DNA of 64,000 nt from Gelidibacter salicanalis (GTDB taxonomy: Bacteria; Bacteroidota; Bacteroidia; Flavobacteriales; Flavobacteriaceae), in contig NZ_VORX01000002.1 of NCBI RefSeq assembly GCF_007997285.1, positions 310,001 through 374,000 on the forward strand, in the 5' to 3' direction. Below, piece after piece: positions 521-7,240 of this stretch (positions within the stretch are counted from its first letter, which is position 1; each line of letters starts with the position of its first letter). Position numbers and translations under genes: made by a program. The notes below the pieces were generated by a model. It was not told the origin of the DNA. It worked only from the letters and a program-made list of their open reading frames with translations, and did not search any database.

Positions 521-1450
521 ATGAAAGGACCTCTATTTTACTCTAAAATTCTACTTTTTGGCGAATACGGTATCATCAAAGATTCCAAAGGTCTATCCAT
601 TCCATATAATTTCTATAACGGGGCGTTAAAAACGGATGGTCTTGAATCTGAAATTTCCCGAAAATCTAACGAGAATCTTAAGAAGTATGTAGCGTACTTA
701 AAAACGATTAGTCCTGAGCTAGTAACTTTTGACGTTGATACTTTAGAAAAAGACGTTGAGGCAGGCATGTACTTTGATTCTTCCATTCCTCAGGGCTATG
801 GCGTGGGGAGCAGTGGGGCATTAGTGGCGGCCATTTATGACCAATACGCGTTCGATAGAATTACGGTTCTTGAGAATTTAACCCGAGAAAAATTAATGAC
901 TTTAAAGTCGATTTTTTCTGAAATGGAATCGTTTTTCCACGGAAAATCTTCCGGATTAGATCCTTTAAACAGTTATTTGAGCATTCCTATTTTAATCAAC
1001 TCACAAGATCATATTGAGGCAGCTGGTATACCTTCACAAAAGAGTGATGGTAAAGGTGCCGTGTTCTTACTAGACAGTGGCATTATAGGCGAAACAGCGC
1101 CGATGGTTAGCATTTTCATGGAAAAAATGAAACAGGAAGGCTTCCGTAACATGCTTAAAAACCAATTTATAAAACATACGGATGCTTGTGTGGATGACTT
1201 TTTGAAAGGAGATTTCAAATCATTATTCGGTAACACTAAAAAACTATCAAAAGTGGCATTGAACCACTTCAAACCTATGATTCCTCAGCAATTCCATGCA
1301 CTGTGGAAAAACGGTCTGGACACCAATGATTACTATCTTAAATTATGTGGTTCCGGCGGCGGCGGGTATATCTTAGGATTTACTGAAGATATTGAAAAGG
1401 CGAAACAGTCCCTTAAAGATTACAAACTAGAGGTAGTTTATAATTTTTAA
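521..1450 (+). CDS. Mevalonate kinase (GHMP kinase)
   Basis: A 309-residue GHMP kinase predicted to phosphorylate mevalonate in the cytosolic mevalonate pathway. Visible motifs in order: an N-terminal substrate-binding strand KILLFGEYGIIKD (residues 9-21), the ATP-binding loop PQGYGVGSSGA (90-100), and the C-terminal glycine-rich loop CGSGGGGYILGF (about 276-287). HGKSSGLDPL resembles the segment holding the catalytic Asp in mevalonate kinases. It lies between mvaD and a UbiA prenyltransferase. A second, different GHMP kinase at 45064-45984 is the better candidate for the phosphomevalonate step. Confidence 0.85.
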   Translation: MKGPLFYSKILLFGEYGIIKDSKGLSIPYNFYNGALKTDGLESEISRKSNENLKKYVAYLKTISPELVTFDVDTLEKDVEAGMYFDSSIPQGYGVGSSGALVAAIYDQYAFDRITVLENLTREKLMTLKSIFSEMESFFHGKSSGLDPLNSYLSIPILINSQDHIEAAGIPSQKSDGKGAVFLLDSGIIGETAPMVSIFMEKMKQEGFRNMLKNQFIKHTDACVDDFLKGDFKSLFGNTKKLSKVALNHFKPMIPQQFHALWKNGLDTNDYYLKLCGSGGGGYILGFTEDIEKAKQSLKDYKLEVVYNF

Positions 1451-1523: not shown

Positions 1524-2426
1524 ATGTTATCCAGAAAACAAAAACATGTCTTACTTAAGTTTTTCAGCATGTTTTCTGTTATTAGAGGCTACAACATTTT
1601 GGTGGTGGTCATTGCCCAATATTTGACTTCAATTTATATACTAGCGCATGATTTACCGTTGCGTGAGGTGGTATTCGATTTGAATTTGTTCATGTTGGTC
1701 CTCGCTTCAGCATCCACAATTGCCGCTGGATACATCATCAATAACTTTTATGATTCTGAAAAAGATTTAATCAACCGGCCTAACAAATCGATGTTGGACC
1801 GATTGGTCAGTCAGAACACCAAATTATCTTTTTATTTTGTTTTGAATTTCTTGGCGGTCGTCATGGCCAGTTACGTGTCGTTCAATACCGTGGTGTTCTT
1901 TTCCCTCTATATTTTCGGAATTTGGTTCTACTCGCACAAGCTGAAACGACTGCCTTTTATAGGAAATCTTACGTCGGCAATTTTGACTATAACGCCTTTT
2001 TTTGCTATTTTTATTTATTACAAGAATTTTGAGACGGTCATCTTTTTTCATGCGATGTTTCTGTTTTTAATCATTGCCATGCGGGAGTTGACCAAGGATT
2101 TAGAAAATATTAAAGGCGATTTGGCCTTGGGCTATCATACGATTCCAGTGAGTTACGGAGAGCCCGTTTCAAAAGTAATGTTGACAGTATTGGCGGTGGT
2201 CACGCTATTGCCAACCTTGCTGCTCATTGCTTATTTTGATATCGGTCAGATGAATTATTTCTTTTATTTGAGCACGCTTTTATTAGTGGTATTTGTAATG
2301 ATGTTATGGAAATCAAAAACGAAAACGCATTATCTTATTTTGCACAACATTCTAAAATTTATCATTGTTGCAGGGGTGTTTTGCATCGTTTTAATCAATG
2401 TAGACGTTGTCTTGAATAGGATTTGA
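1524..2426 (+). CDS. UbiA-family prenyltransferase
   Basis: A 300-residue polytopic membrane protein with about eight or nine hydrophobic segments. The two Asp-rich motifs of UbiA-type aromatic/lipid prenyltransferases are present: N73-x3-D77-x3-D81 (NNFYDSEKD) and a second one in KDLENIKGD (about residues 190-198). These bind the Mg-diphosphate of the prenyl donor. Flavobacterial relatives are usually labelled geranylgeranylglycerol-phosphate geranylgeranyltransferase-like. The acceptor cannot be read from the sequence; menaquinone or lipid prenylation are alternatives. Its place after two mevalonate genes fits an isoprenoid-consuming enzyme. Confidence 0.82.
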   Translation: MLSRKQKHVLLKFFSMFSVIRGYNILVVVIAQYLTSIYILAHDLPLREVVFDLNLFMLVLASASTIAAGYIINNFYDSEKDLINRPNKSMLDRLVSQNTKLSFYFVLNFLAVVMASYVSFNTVVFFSLYIFGIWFYSHKLKRLPFIGNLTSAILTITPFFAIFIYYKNFETVIFFHAMFLFLIIAMRELTKDLENIKGDLALGYHTIPVSYGEPVSKVMLTVLAVVTLLPTLLLIAYFDIGQMNYFFYLSTLLLVVFVMMLWKSKTKTHYLILHNILKFIIVAGVFCIVLINVDVVLNRI

Positions 2427-2493: not shown

Positions 2494-3405
2494 ATGAGTA
2501 GACATCAAGGGAGTAGTGGAAAAGGAAAATCTTCAGGAAGAGGTCAGAGCAAAAGTGGTTCAACCGCTGCAGGAAGAGGAAGTGAAAGTCCTAAAAGCAA
2601 AAGTTATGCTAGAGGGAATGCTCCAGTGAAAAAGGATTCAAAAGATGTTGCAAAACCTTCTTTTGATAAAAAACCAGCGGCTAAAAAATCAAATCTAGAT
2701 GAAATCCGATTGAATAAATACATTGCCAATTCTGGCATTTGTTCACGTCGTGATGCAGATATGCATATTTCTACCGGAAACGTTACCGTTAACGGGAAGA
2801 TCGTTTCGGAAATGGGGTATAAAGTGAAATTAGAGGATGATGTGCGTTTTGATGGCGCCCGAATTAATCCAGAAAAGAAGGCTTACGTGTTGTTGAACAA
2901 GCCTAAAGGTTTCGCGACGACCACTAGTGAAGGCAAGGGTAGAACGGTTATGGATTTGGTAGCAAATGCTACCACGTCACGTATAAAGCCAATTGGCCGA
3001 TTGGGAAGAAACTCATTAGGTTTAATTTTATTTACCAACGATGATGTGTTGATGCAGAAATTCACCAACTCGAAAAAAGGTGTGCCTCGTGTGTTTCAAA
3101 TTGAATTGGACAAGAATTTAAAGTTTGAAGATTTAAAGAAAATCCAAGACGGATTAAATATTGAAGGTAAATTTGTCAGTGTTGAAGAGATCAGTTTTGT
3201 AGACGGTCAGTCCAAGAATTTTATTGGTTTGAAAATTAAAAACACGGGAAGTACTATTATTCGGTCAATTTTTGATCATTTAAACTATGAGATTGTTAAA
3301 TTGGACTGTGTGGCAATTGCAGGATTAACGAAGAAAGATATTCCTAGAGGCCATTGGAAACACCTTACGGAACAAGAAATAAACACCTTAAAGATGCTTC
3401 CGTAA
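2494..3405 (+). CDS. RluB/RsuA-like pseudouridine synthase homologue lacking the catalytic Asp
   Basis: A 303-residue protein with three parts: a low-complexity basic Ser/Gly/Lys tail (residues 1-67), an S4 RNA-binding domain (about 68-125, with RLNKYIANSGICSRRDAD), and an RsuA/RluB-type catalytic fold (from about 130, LNKPKGFATTTSEGKGR). The family converts uridine to pseudouridine in 23S rRNA using the Asp of GRLDxxTxGLLLLTND. Here the motif reads GRLGRNSLGLILFTND, so residue 171 is Gly (codon GGA at 3004). The usual RQVRRMF stretch is also degraded (GSTIIRSIFDHL). RNA binding is probably kept, but pseudouridylation by the standard mechanism is unlikely. It may act as a ribosome-assembly or RNA-binding factor. 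Confidence 0.8.
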   Translation: MSRHQGSSGKGKSSGRGQSKSGSTAAGRGSESPKSKSYARGNAPVKKDSKDVAKPSFDKKPAAKKSNLDEIRLNKYIANSGICSRRDADMHISTGNVTVNGKIVSEMGYKVKLEDDVRFDGARINPEKKAYVLLNKPKGFATTTSEGKGRTVMDLVANATTSRIKPIGRLGRNSLGLILFTNDDVLMQKFTNSKKGVPRVFQIELDKNLKFEDLKKIQDGLNIEGKFVSVEEISFVDGQSKNFIGLKIKNTGSTIIRSIFDHLNYEIVKLDCVAIAGLTKKDIPRGHWKHLTEQEINTLKMLP

Positions 3406-3851: not shown

Positions 3852-5273
3852 ATGAATACAAAATATATTGATCTCATCAATCAAACATTTTATTTCCCAC
3901 AAGATGAATTCAAACTGGAGGATAAAACCCTTCAATTCCATGATATTGATTTAATGAAGTTGGTAGAAGATTATGGGACACCTTTAAAGTTTACCTATTT
4001 ACCTCAAATATCAAATAATATAGGACGTGCCAAAACCTGGTTTAACAAAGCCATTAAAAAGCACAAATACAAGGGAAAATACCACTATTGCTATTGTACC
4101 AAAAGTTCTCATTTTAAGCATGTTTTAAATGAAGCTTTAAAAAATGACATCCATATTGAAACCTCTTCAGCATTTGATATCGATATTGTTGAAAAACTTA
4201 AGGAAGAAGGCAAGATTACGGATAAAACTTATGTGATCAGCAACGGCTTCAAAAGGGCACAATACGTGACCAATATTGCGCGATTGATCAACAGCGGCCA
4301 TAAAAACTGTATTCCAATCATTGACAATTACGAAGAAATTGATTTGCTGTCTCAGGAGATTAAAGGCAAATTCAACATCGGGATTCGGATTGCATCAGAA
4401 GAGGAGCCAAAATTTGAGTTTTATACTTCTCGTTTAGGGATTGGTTATAAAAACATTTTGCCTTTCTACAGAAATCAAATCAAGGAAAATAAAAAGGTAA
4501 AGTTGAAAATGCTACACTTTTTTATCAACACCGGAATTCGCGATAATGCCTATTACTGGAACGAACTTTCTAAATGTTTAAAAGTATACACCAGTTTAAA
4601 ACGCATCTGTCCATCATTGGATAGTTTGAATATTGGTGGCGGCTTTCCAATAAAAAATTCGTTGGCATTCGATTTTGACTATGAGTATATGGTGGATGAA
4701 ATCGTTAACCAAATTCAATTGTTCTGTGAGCAAGAAGAAGTAGACGTGCCAAACATCTTTACAGAATTTGGAAGTTTTACAGTTGGCGAGAGCGGCGGTG
4801 CTATTTACGAAGTATTGTACCAAAAACAGCAAAATGACAAGGAGAAATGGAACATGATCAATTCGTCGTTCATTACTACCCTTCCTGATACTTGGGCTAT
4901 TAACAAACGTTTTGTAATGTTGCCAATTAACCGTTGGAACGACAGTTACGAGCGTGTGTTGCTAGGTGGTTTAACTTGTGATAGTGATGATTATTACAAT
5001 AGTGAGCAGCATATGAATGCGATATACCTACCTAAGTATAATAAGGATAAACCTTTGTATCTTGGCTTTTTTAATACGGGAGCGTATCAAGAAACAATTG
5101 GTGGATTTGGCGGCTTGCAACACTGTTTGATTCCATCACCAAAACACCTTCTGATCGATAAAGATGAAGACGGTAATTTTACTACTAAAATTTTTAGTGA
5201 ACAACAAAAGAGTGAAGACTTATTAAAAATTTTAGGTTACAACGACACGGATGAGAGCACAGCTACTCAATAA
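3852..5273 (+). CDS. speA: Biosynthetic arginine decarboxylase (alanine-racemase fold, PLP)
   Basis: A 473-residue fold-type III PLP decarboxylase, much shorter than the roughly 650-residue SpeA of E. coli and of the size seen in other Bacteroidota. The PLP lysine is K84 in YCTKSSHF, near the start of the TIM barrel. NIGGGFPIKN is the glycine-rich phosphate-binding loop. C376 in GGLTCDSDDYY is the C-terminal catalytic cysteine typical of the family. Predicted to decarboxylate arginine to agmatine. The agmatinase gene directly downstream supports arginine over diaminopimelate or lysine as substrate. It heads a four-gene polyamine operon. Confidence 0.85.
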   Translation: MNTKYIDLINQTFYFPQDEFKLEDKTLQFHDIDLMKLVEDYGTPLKFTYLPQISNNIGRAKTWFNKAIKKHKYKGKYHYCYCTKSSHFKHVLNEALKNDIHIETSSAFDIDIVEKLKEEGKITDKTYVISNGFKRAQYVTNIARLINSGHKNCIPIIDNYEEIDLLSQEIKGKFNIGIRIASEEEPKFEFYTSRLGIGYKNILPFYRNQIKENKKVKLKMLHFFINTGIRDNAYYWNELSKCLKVYTSLKRICPSLDSLNIGGGFPIKNSLAFDFDYEYMVDEIVNQIQLFCEQEEVDVPNIFTEFGSFTVGESGGAIYEVLYQKQQNDKEKWNMINSSFITTLPDTWAINKRFVMLPINRWNDSYERVLLGGLTCDSDDYYNSEQHMNAIYLPKYNKDKPLYLGFFNTGAYQETIGGFGGLQHCLIPSPKHLLIDKDEDGNFTTKIFSEQQKSEDLLKILGYNDTDESTATQ

Positions 5274-5328
5274 AATCAATATATTTAAACACCAATTGCA
5301 TTTACTTTAAAATAATAATTATTACACA

Positions 5329-6273
5329 ATGAACAGTAATATAACGTATGCGGGAATACCTGAGGAATATTCCAAATTAGACAATGCCAAAATCGTATTG
5401 ATTCCTGTGCCTTATGATGGTACAAGTACTTGGCAAAAAGGTGCTGACCAAGGTCCGAAAGCTTTTCTTGATGCTTCTGAAAACATGGAGCTTTATGATA
5501 TTGAGACAGAGACTGAGGTTTACAAACAAGGTATTTATCTTGCAGATGCCGTTACGGAGAATTCATCACCAGAAAAAATGGTTGATGCCGTACACCAAAC
5601 TGTCAAGAAATACATTACTCGCAATAAATTTGTAACCGCTTTTGGTGGCGAGCATTCCATCTCTATCGGAACCATTCGTGCTTTTAACGAGTGTTTTGAT
5701 AACTTGACCGTGCTTCAAATTGATGCACACGCTGATTTGCGTAAAGAGTATCAAGGTTCAAAATGTAATCATGCTTGTGCCGTGTACGAAGCTAGTCAAA
5801 CTACCAATCTGATTCAAGTAGGCATCAGAAGTATGGATGTTATTGAAACTACAGTAATGGATAAAGACAAAACGTATTTTGCCCATGATATGGTCAACGA
5901 TGAGTTTTGGATGGACAGCGCGGTAGACCAAATGACGGAAAACGTTTTTATTACTATTGATTTGGATGCTTTTGATCCGTCAATTATGCCATCAACAGGA
6001 ACGCCGGAACCAGGTGGACTGCTTTGGTATGAAACCTTAGACTTTTTAAGAAAAGTTTTTGCAGAGAAAAACGTGGTAGGATTTGATATTGTTGAGCTTT
6101 GCCCAGATCCAGAAGAAAAATCGTCAGATTTTCTTGCCGCTAAATTATATTACAAAATGTTATGCTATAAATTCTTGGACGATAATGTAGAAGATGGGTA
6201 CGAGAGTACTTTTAACGAATCAGCTTCAAGTACAAACAAAATTTCTAAATTTGATAATGATGAAGACAACTAA
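5329..6273 (+). CDS. speB: Agmatinase / ureohydrolase
   Basis: A 314-residue arginase-family manganese hydrolase. All metal-ligand motifs are present: GGEHS (H109), DAHAD (D132, H134, D136) and DLDAFDP (D211, D213). The length is normal for the family, with a short acidic tail. It most likely splits agmatine, made by the upstream decarboxylase, into putrescine and urea. The 3' end overlaps the start of the deoxyhypusine-synthase-like gene, indicating translational coupling. Arginase or another guanidino-hydrolase activity cannot be excluded from sequence alone. Confidence 0.87.
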   Translation: MNSNITYAGIPEEYSKLDNAKIVLIPVPYDGTSTWQKGADQGPKAFLDASENMELYDIETETEVYKQGIYLADAVTENSSPEKMVDAVHQTVKKYITRNKFVTAFGGEHSISIGTIRAFNECFDNLTVLQIDAHADLRKEYQGSKCNHACAVYEASQTTNLIQVGIRSMDVIETTVMDKDKTYFAHDMVNDEFWMDSAVDQMTENVFITIDLDAFDPSIMPSTGTPEPGGLLWYETLDFLRKVFAEKNVVGFDIVELCPDPEEKSSDFLAAKLYYKMLCYKFLDDNVEDGYESTFNESASSTNKISKFDNDEDN

Positions 6274-7240
6274 TAAAGGACATATTTCTAATTTTATTGA
6301 GAAATATTATTTACATTTTAACGCTGCGGCGTTGGTAGATGCTGCTAAAGGCTACGAAGCTCAATTAGAGAAAGGCTCAAAGATGTTAGTGTCTTTGGCT
6401 GGTGCGATGAGTACGGCGGAAATAGGTAAAATTTTTGCTGAAATGATCCGTCAGGACAAAGTTCAGATTATTTCCTGTACAGGTGCCAACCTAGAGGAAG
6501 ATATCATGAACTTGGTGGCACACTCACACTACAAACGTGTGCCTAATTACCGCGATTTGACGCCTCAAGAGGAGTGGGATCTGATGGAAAAAGGACTGAA
6601 CCGTGTTACTGACACCTGTATTCCTGAAGAAGAAGCGTTTAGACGTTTACAGGAGCATATCTTTAAAATTTGGAAAGATGCTGAAGAGAAAGGTGAACGT
6701 TATTTACCGCATGAGTATATGTACAAAATGCTTTTGAGCGGAGTGCTTGAACAGTATTACGAGATTGACCTTAAAGATTCTTGGATGTATGCCGCGGCAG
6801 AGAAAAATTTACCTATAATTGTTCCAGGTTGGGAAGACAGTACAATGGGTAATATTTTTGCCAGCTACGTGCTTAAAGGAGAGTTGAAGGCAAGTACAAT
6901 GAAATCTGGAATAGAGTACATGACCTTCTTGGCCGATTGGTATACCGAGAATTCTAAGGACGGCATTGGTTTCTTCCAAATTGGTGGTGGTATTGCGGGA
7001 GATTTCCCAATATGTGTCGTACCAATGTTATATCAAGATATGGAACGTACAGATACACCATTCTGGAGTTATTTCTGTCAAATCAGTGATTCTACAACAA
7101 GTTATGGCTCGTATTCAGGAGCTGTTCCTAATGAAAAGATTACTTGGGGAAAATTAGATGTAGACACCCCAAAATTTATTATTGAAAGTGATGCTACAAT
7201 TGTTGCACCGCTTATATTTGCCTACCTATTAGACATGTAA
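6260..7240 (+). CDS. Deoxyhypusine-synthase-like enzyme (possible homospermidine synthase)
   Basis: A 326-residue homologue of deoxyhypusine synthase, an NAD-dependent aminobutyl transferase. The start is set at the ATG at 6260 (6257 is also possible), overlapping speB by 14 bases; the open frame upstream to 6194 lies inside speB and is not used. The catalytic lysine is conserved as K298 in ITWGKLDVD. The His-His pair that follows GGG in eukaryotic enzymes (GGGLPKHH), which contacts spermidine, is replaced by GGGIAGDFP. With arginine decarboxylase and agmatinase directly upstream, it probably moves an aminobutyl group onto putrescine to give homospermidine, not onto an eIF5A-type protein. That product is inferred. 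Confidence 0.8.
   Translation: MKTTNKGHISNFIEKYYLHFNAAALVDAAKGYEAQLEKGSKMLVSLAGAMSTAEIGKIFAEMIRQDKVQIISCTGANLEEDIMNLVAHSHYKRVPNYRDLTPQEEWDLMEKGLNRVTDTCIPEEEAFRRLQEHIFKIWKDAEEKGERYLPHEYMYKMLLSGVLEQYYEIDLKDSWMYAAAEKNLPIIVPGWEDSTMGNIFASYVLKGELKASTMKSGIEYMTFLADWYTENSKDGIGFFQIGGGIAGDFPICVVPMLYQDMERTDTPFWSYFCQISDSTTSYGSYSGAVPNEKITWGKLDVDTPKFIIESDATIVAPLIFAYLLDM

Follow-up and report, generated by a model that had tools for sequence, protein, structure and literature searches.

The window, by which we mean the whole stretch of 64,000 nucleotides that was analysed, contains at 2494-3405 on the forward strand an ORF of 303 amino acids, which starts with ATG and has no internal stops. Its product is a putative pseudoenzyme of the RluB type, and its nearest named relatives are the proteins of Gelidibacter species, with 94% protein identity to G. 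salicanalis. The ORF, its parts and its two conserved upstream neighbours, here called mvk and ubiA, are listed in Table 1. Downstream, from 3852 to 7240, lie arginine decarboxylase-, agmatinase- and deoxyhypusine-synthase-like genes, named from the sequence as read.

Table 1. Features of the RluB-like gene and its upstream neighbours; coordinates are those of the window.
Feature	Coordinates	Strand	Remarks
Mevalonate-kinase-like (GHMP) gene, conserved upstream neighbour	521..1450	+	name from sequence as read
UbiA-like prenyltransferase gene, conserved upstream neighbour	1524..2426	+	name from sequence as read
RluB-type pseudoenzyme (putative), 303 aa, single copy	2494..3405	+	
N-terminal tail, residues 1-69, basic, Ser/Gly/Lys-rich, loosely constrained (dN/dS about 0.25)	2494..2700	+	
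S4 RNA-binding domain, residues 72-117	2707..2844	+	Pfam; R85 = E. coli RluB Arg17
Motif II, GRLGRNSLGLILFTNDD	2995..3045	+	R169 (Arg108) retained, Gly171 for Asp110
Equivalent of the bulge-binding loop of RluB, last residue Phe201	3067..3096	+	loop function from PMC3919597
Motif III	3226..3279	+	Thr254 for Arg194, Ser258 for Arg198, R257 retained

Besides the S4 domain at residues 72-117, Pfam recognises a partial PseudoU_synth_2 domain at residues 131-223. The score of the protein with TIGR00093, which describes the RsuA/RluB/RluE/RluF subfamily, is 82.2 bits and thus under the curated cut-off of 109.3; Asp-bearing Bacteroidota homologues score 153-155. An AlphaFold2 model built with 65 homologues reached a pLDDT of 90 and a pTM of 0.79. 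The solved structures closest to this model are RluF with RNA (3dh3), RsuA (1ksk), RluB with RNA (4lgt) and 9cl9, the last of which is RluB on an E. coli pre-50S intermediate. By Pfam, AlphaFold and Foldseek, therefore, the S4 domain and the overall RsuA-type fold are retained, as the earlier note had proposed.

The residues were numbered against RluB of E. coli MG1655, and their roles were taken from PMC3919597. Motif II of the ORF reads GRLGRNSLGLILFTND, and in the alignment Gly171 (codon GGA at 3004-3006) occupies the position of the catalytic Asp110, which bears out the previous claim that this Asp is missing. A third change, absent from the earlier note, is Phe201 (codon 3094-3096) at the position of the catalytic Tyr140. 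In motif III, Thr254 (codon 3253-3255) stands at the position of Arg194, and the RNRIVRRIF of Asp-type relatives has become GSTIIRSIF, Thr254 replacing the first Arg and Ser258 the last. The RQVRRMF stretch had been described as replaced altogether; its first and last Arg are indeed changed, but R257, the Arg between them, and the Phe are still there. In the bulge loop, Asn192-Ser193 are found where RluB has His131-Pro132. Two residues that contact RNA are retained, namely R169, the equivalent of the base-flipping Arg108, and R85, the equivalent of Arg17, which anchors RNA in the S4 domain. In E. coli RluB the Y140F mutant has 3% activity and the R108A mutant 0.6% (PMC3919597). On sequence grounds the Gly171 protein appears excluded as a normal pseudouridine synthase, in agreement with the first reading of this DNA. 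The basic N-terminal tail, in contrast, cannot count as the added feature for which it had been taken: Asp-type Bacteroidota homologues have similar or far longer tails, and basic N-terminal tails are general in Bacteroidota RluB.

The conservation of Gly171 was checked in flavobacterial relatives, and the Gly is kept in the other eight Gelidibacter genomes searched as well as in every named close relative compared (L028-L107). It is also present throughout one clade of 102 genera (SH-aLRT 99), where it is encoded by GGA (41), GGT (30), GGG (19) and GGC (12). As the Gly is thus fixed in many genera and all four of its codons are in use, a strain-specific mutation or a sequencing error is ruled out.

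The whole genome contains six PF00849 genes: three of the RluA type, one RluE-like (motif GRLDKNS), one RluF (motif GRLDKPS) and the RluB-like gene at 2494-3405. The RluF is a separate, intact gene, with 324 bits against an NCBIfam RluF cut-off of 318. No second, intact RluB is found among the six, and this inventory rules out that the gene is a paralogue beside an intact RluB at another locus. The order mvk-ubiA-RluB is common to homologues with Asp, Gly, Glu, Asn, His or Ser at residue 171, with the three genes on one strand in every genome for which the flanks were available, and the single Gln-type RluB retains its ubiA neighbour. Since this order is the same across residue types, the window gene is an orthologue and not, as had been suggested, a paralogue; gene order and trees agree that it is orthologous to the Asp-bearing RluB-like enzymes of Bacteroidota. 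Because E. coli RluB, on a long branch with a support of only 88/64, is not placed by the tree, we infer the identity as RluB, as against another RsuA-type enzyme, from the GKNR/GRNR and HP loop signatures of the Asp-type orthologues, which favour RluB, and the identity of the target from these signatures and the association with RluF described below. On the downstream side, arginine decarboxylase- and agmatinase-like genes follow RluB in most of those Gly-type genomes whose flank is long enough, and in only a few Asp types.

From the Flavobacteriaceae, 200 genomes, sampled evenly and covering 199 genera, were searched by profile and the genes found were then aligned. RluB was detected in 188 of them, the other 12 giving no match or an RluF-level match only. 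Residue 171 is Gly in 114 of these proteins, Asp in 56, Glu in 10, Ser, Asn and His in two each, and Lys and Gln in one each; the equivalent of Asp110 is thus missing in 132/188. Nearly all Asp-less proteins (131/132) also lack the equivalent of Arg194, and 108/132 have Phe for Tyr140. The Arg194 equivalent is missing in 17 of the 56 Asp-bearing proteins as well, and R108, D110 and R194 are all present in only 36/188. The S4 Arg (Arg17, R85 in the window protein) is Arg in 188/188. A search of the available literature found no account of inactive RluB in Flavobacteria, no pseudouridine maps of the group and no essentiality data.

Two further groups were noted. In five small Flavobacteriaceae genomes (L391-L394 and L396) the RluB-like protein reads GDMGRP or similar; even the base-flipping Arg is lost here, yet the gene has an open frame and the S4 Arg is retained. 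In a species-rich genus (g127; L358, L371, L373, L374 and L378-L381) Asp110 is present, the Gly of TNDG is replaced and Arg194 is Lys (NVKVVRAIF), which is possibly a weakened or intermediate state of RluB. Outside the Flavobacteriaceae, 24 of the 30 sampled genomes have an intact RluB, and the six exceptions fall in three families (f8, f11 and f20); a further f11 genome (L141) also has Gly. The erosion in these families (L141, L422 and L435 in f11; L429, L432 and L433 in f8; L434 in f20) is independent, and every one of the genomes bears RluF.

The RluB tree was made without the trait columns, and a second tree was made from the neighbouring mvk and ubiA proteins. The presence of Asp requires at least 13 changes by parsimony on the RluB tree, of which 6 are forced by supported branches, and at least 10 on the mvk and ubiA tree, of which 3 are forced. 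If loss is taken as irreversible, 15 Asp losses are counted on the RluB tree. Several independent losses of Asp are thus secure, in agreement with the variety of the replacing residues (G, E, N, H, S, Q and K), although their exact number (10-15 events by parsimony) is uncertain because the branches are long and many forks are weak.

Among nine Gelidibacter sequences the median dN/dS of the RluB core (residues 70-303) is 0.024, next to 0.032 for mvk, 0.032 for ubiA and 0.014 for speA, the flanking genes, and 0.25 for the RluB tail, all of them rough values because synonymous sites are near saturation. Purifying selection on the Gelidibacter RluB core is strong. Across the 102 genera of the Gly clade, Gly171, R169 and R85 are each invariant (102/102), and the clade has its own conserved motif III (KNTGNTIIRTIF) and C272. 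Its column entropy exceeds that of intact relatives at motif II, in the bulge loop and at motif III, and slightly so in the C-terminal part; it falls below theirs in the S4 domain, in the linker behind this domain and in the central part of the synthase domain. The active site is freed from constraint, whereas the RNA-binding part is still constrained, and RluB appears to have been retained for some non-catalytic task. The 23S segment AGAACGTCGTGAGACAGTTCGGTC, which holds U2604 and U2605, is identical in 31/31 genomes with an assembled 23S, with Asp-type and with eroded RluB alike; the window's own genome, the assembly of which lacks the 23S, is not one of the 31. An altered rRNA target was rejected, the loop being identical across the genomes compared.

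The state of RluB was then set against the presence of RluF, for which the profile splits the genomes sharply (present at E below 1e-80, otherwise absent). Intact RluB (R108, D110 and R194) is found in 18 of the 21 Flavobacteriaceae genomes without RluF versus 18 of the 167 with it (Fisher p = 1.5e-12, not corrected for relatedness). The three exceptions without RluF are G073 (80% complete), G200 (78% complete), which keeps the Asp and has Met for Arg194, and G012, which is small and strongly diverged. Outside the family, among the 30 genomes, RluB is intact in 14/14 without RluF versus 10/16 with RluF (p = 0.019). In the reconstruction on the RluB tree, all 15 Asp losses occurred on RluF-bearing lineages, and 15/17 losses of RluF occurred on Asp-bearing lineages, versus 46% predicted from branch length (p = 4e-4). 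Tests on independent pairs had too few informative pairs and therefore low power to confirm the association. RluF without RluB was found in ten of the 200 genomes, including G130 (a single contig, 99% complete); loss of the whole RluB gene occurs in this sample only alongside RluF, and the protein is therefore dispensable in some lineages.

The reading that we favour, with moderate confidence, is that the window gene is an RluB orthologue turned pseudoenzyme, which has probably been retained to bind H90, a stem-loop in 23S rRNA, during 50S assembly. Catalysis would have been lost through the changes of Asp110 to Gly, Tyr140 to Phe and Arg194 to Thr. As the protein retains its fold, its S4 anchor and the Arg that flips the base, docking on H90 (nucleotides 2588-2606, in the peptidyl transferase centre) most likely persists and would take place in pre-50S particles, where a Gly-type RluB may act as a non-catalytic binder or folding factor. 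The loss of RluB catalysis would be tolerated mainly in the presence of RluF, an enzyme of this same stem-loop. The dispensability of RluB in some lineages speaks against this reading.

The confinement of eroded RluB almost entirely to RluF-bearing genomes, within and outside the family, the course of the Asp and RluF losses on the tree and the presence of RluF in all ten genomes without RluB would also be expected if RluF made or replaced the modification at 2605, the redundant catalysis of RluB then eroded and the leftover protein, nearly functionless, were now being lost. E. coli RluF does modify U2605 in vivo to a small extent (PMC3919597). We nevertheless think this unlikely, since such decay is at odds with the low dN/dS of the core and with the invariance of Gly171, R169 and R85 over 102 genera, and since the independent pairs lend the association itself little power. 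Moreover, when 15 genomes with intact RluB and 26 with eroded RluB were compared, no RluF residue tracked the state of RluB except at a single position with a Val/Ile preference, and an adaptation of RluF to take over U2605 was rejected on this ground. RluF has been described with a conserved Asp that faces the A2602 bulge (PMC3919597). In flavobacterial RluF (L436-L475 and L005) this site is mostly Asn or His, with few Gly, Gln, Lys or Tyr and Asp in one; such substitutions might bear on which of U2604 and U2605 is modified.

Between the Gly clade and the intact enzymes, 18 core positions are fixed differently, as might be seen if the clade had been recruited to another ligand or protein instead of the old rRNA site. 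This appears quite improbable, as R85 in the S4 domain and R169 in motif II, both known contacts to the H90 stem-loop, are invariant and the target loop is unchanged. That the enzyme is still active, with its catalytic carboxylate moved to another site or with a new chemistry, we consider very improbable: residue 184 (window 3034-3051), the Gly of TNDG in Asp-type enzymes, has become acidic (Asp or Glu) in 101/102 members of the main Gly clade, but it lies 13 residues on, past the beta strand behind the catalytic loop, and so is probably far from the active site, it is acidic in only 3/30 of the lineages that lost the Asp independently, and Arg194 and Tyr140 were lost along with the Asp.

Retention of RluB as a non-catalytic binder can be compared with known systems. 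The window protein resembles E. coli RluB, the 23S pseudouridine(2605) synthase (4lgt, 4lab and 9cl9), in its S4 domain and RsuA-type fold, in the equivalents of Arg17 and Arg108 and in its single copy; it differs in that Asp110, Tyr140, Arg194 and His131-Pro132 are replaced and its score lies below the TIGR00093 cut-off, and activity would not be expected. Its best PDB match by both sequence and fold is RluF (3dh3), the 23S pseudouridine(2604) synthase of the same stem-loop. Catalysis-independent roles in 50S assembly have been shown for E. coli RlmB and RlmKL, modification enzymes that act near the peptidyl transferase centre and whose protein aids assembly without the chemistry (PMC11194073). 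These are methyltransferases with an engineered inactivity, whereas in RluB the predicted inactivity is natural, repeated and fixed. In E. coli, 50S assembly is not restored by an RluC that has been made inactive (PMC11194073), and therefore such a non-catalytic role is not general. The growth effect of E. coli RluD is reportedly independent of its own pseudouridines, as cited in PMC10117853. RluD is, however, natively active, of the RluA type and directed to another rRNA site. A role of Gly-type RluB in ribosome assembly, which the earlier note had put forward, would still be plausible.

E. coli is little affected when single rRNA modification enzymes are deleted, which raises the question whether cells keep such enzymes for the base that they modify or for the action of the protein on the pre-ribosome. 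In the case described here the catalytic residues have been removed many times from a protein that is itself strongly selected, and the presence of RluF is the condition to which the pattern points. We are about evenly divided on the broader proposition that most Flavobacteriaceae genera lack RluB catalysis and that RluB has turned repeatedly, and always in the presence of RluF, into a conserved non-catalytic factor of ribosome assembly. The annotation 'RluB / pseudouridine synthase' in Flavobacteriaceae would often denote an enzyme that is unlikely to be active. The question of base versus protein is made testable in marine bacteria that are culturable and non-pathogenic, and, if the proposed reading is true, these bacteria would provide a natural separation of the protein role of an rRNA-modifying enzyme from its chemistry.
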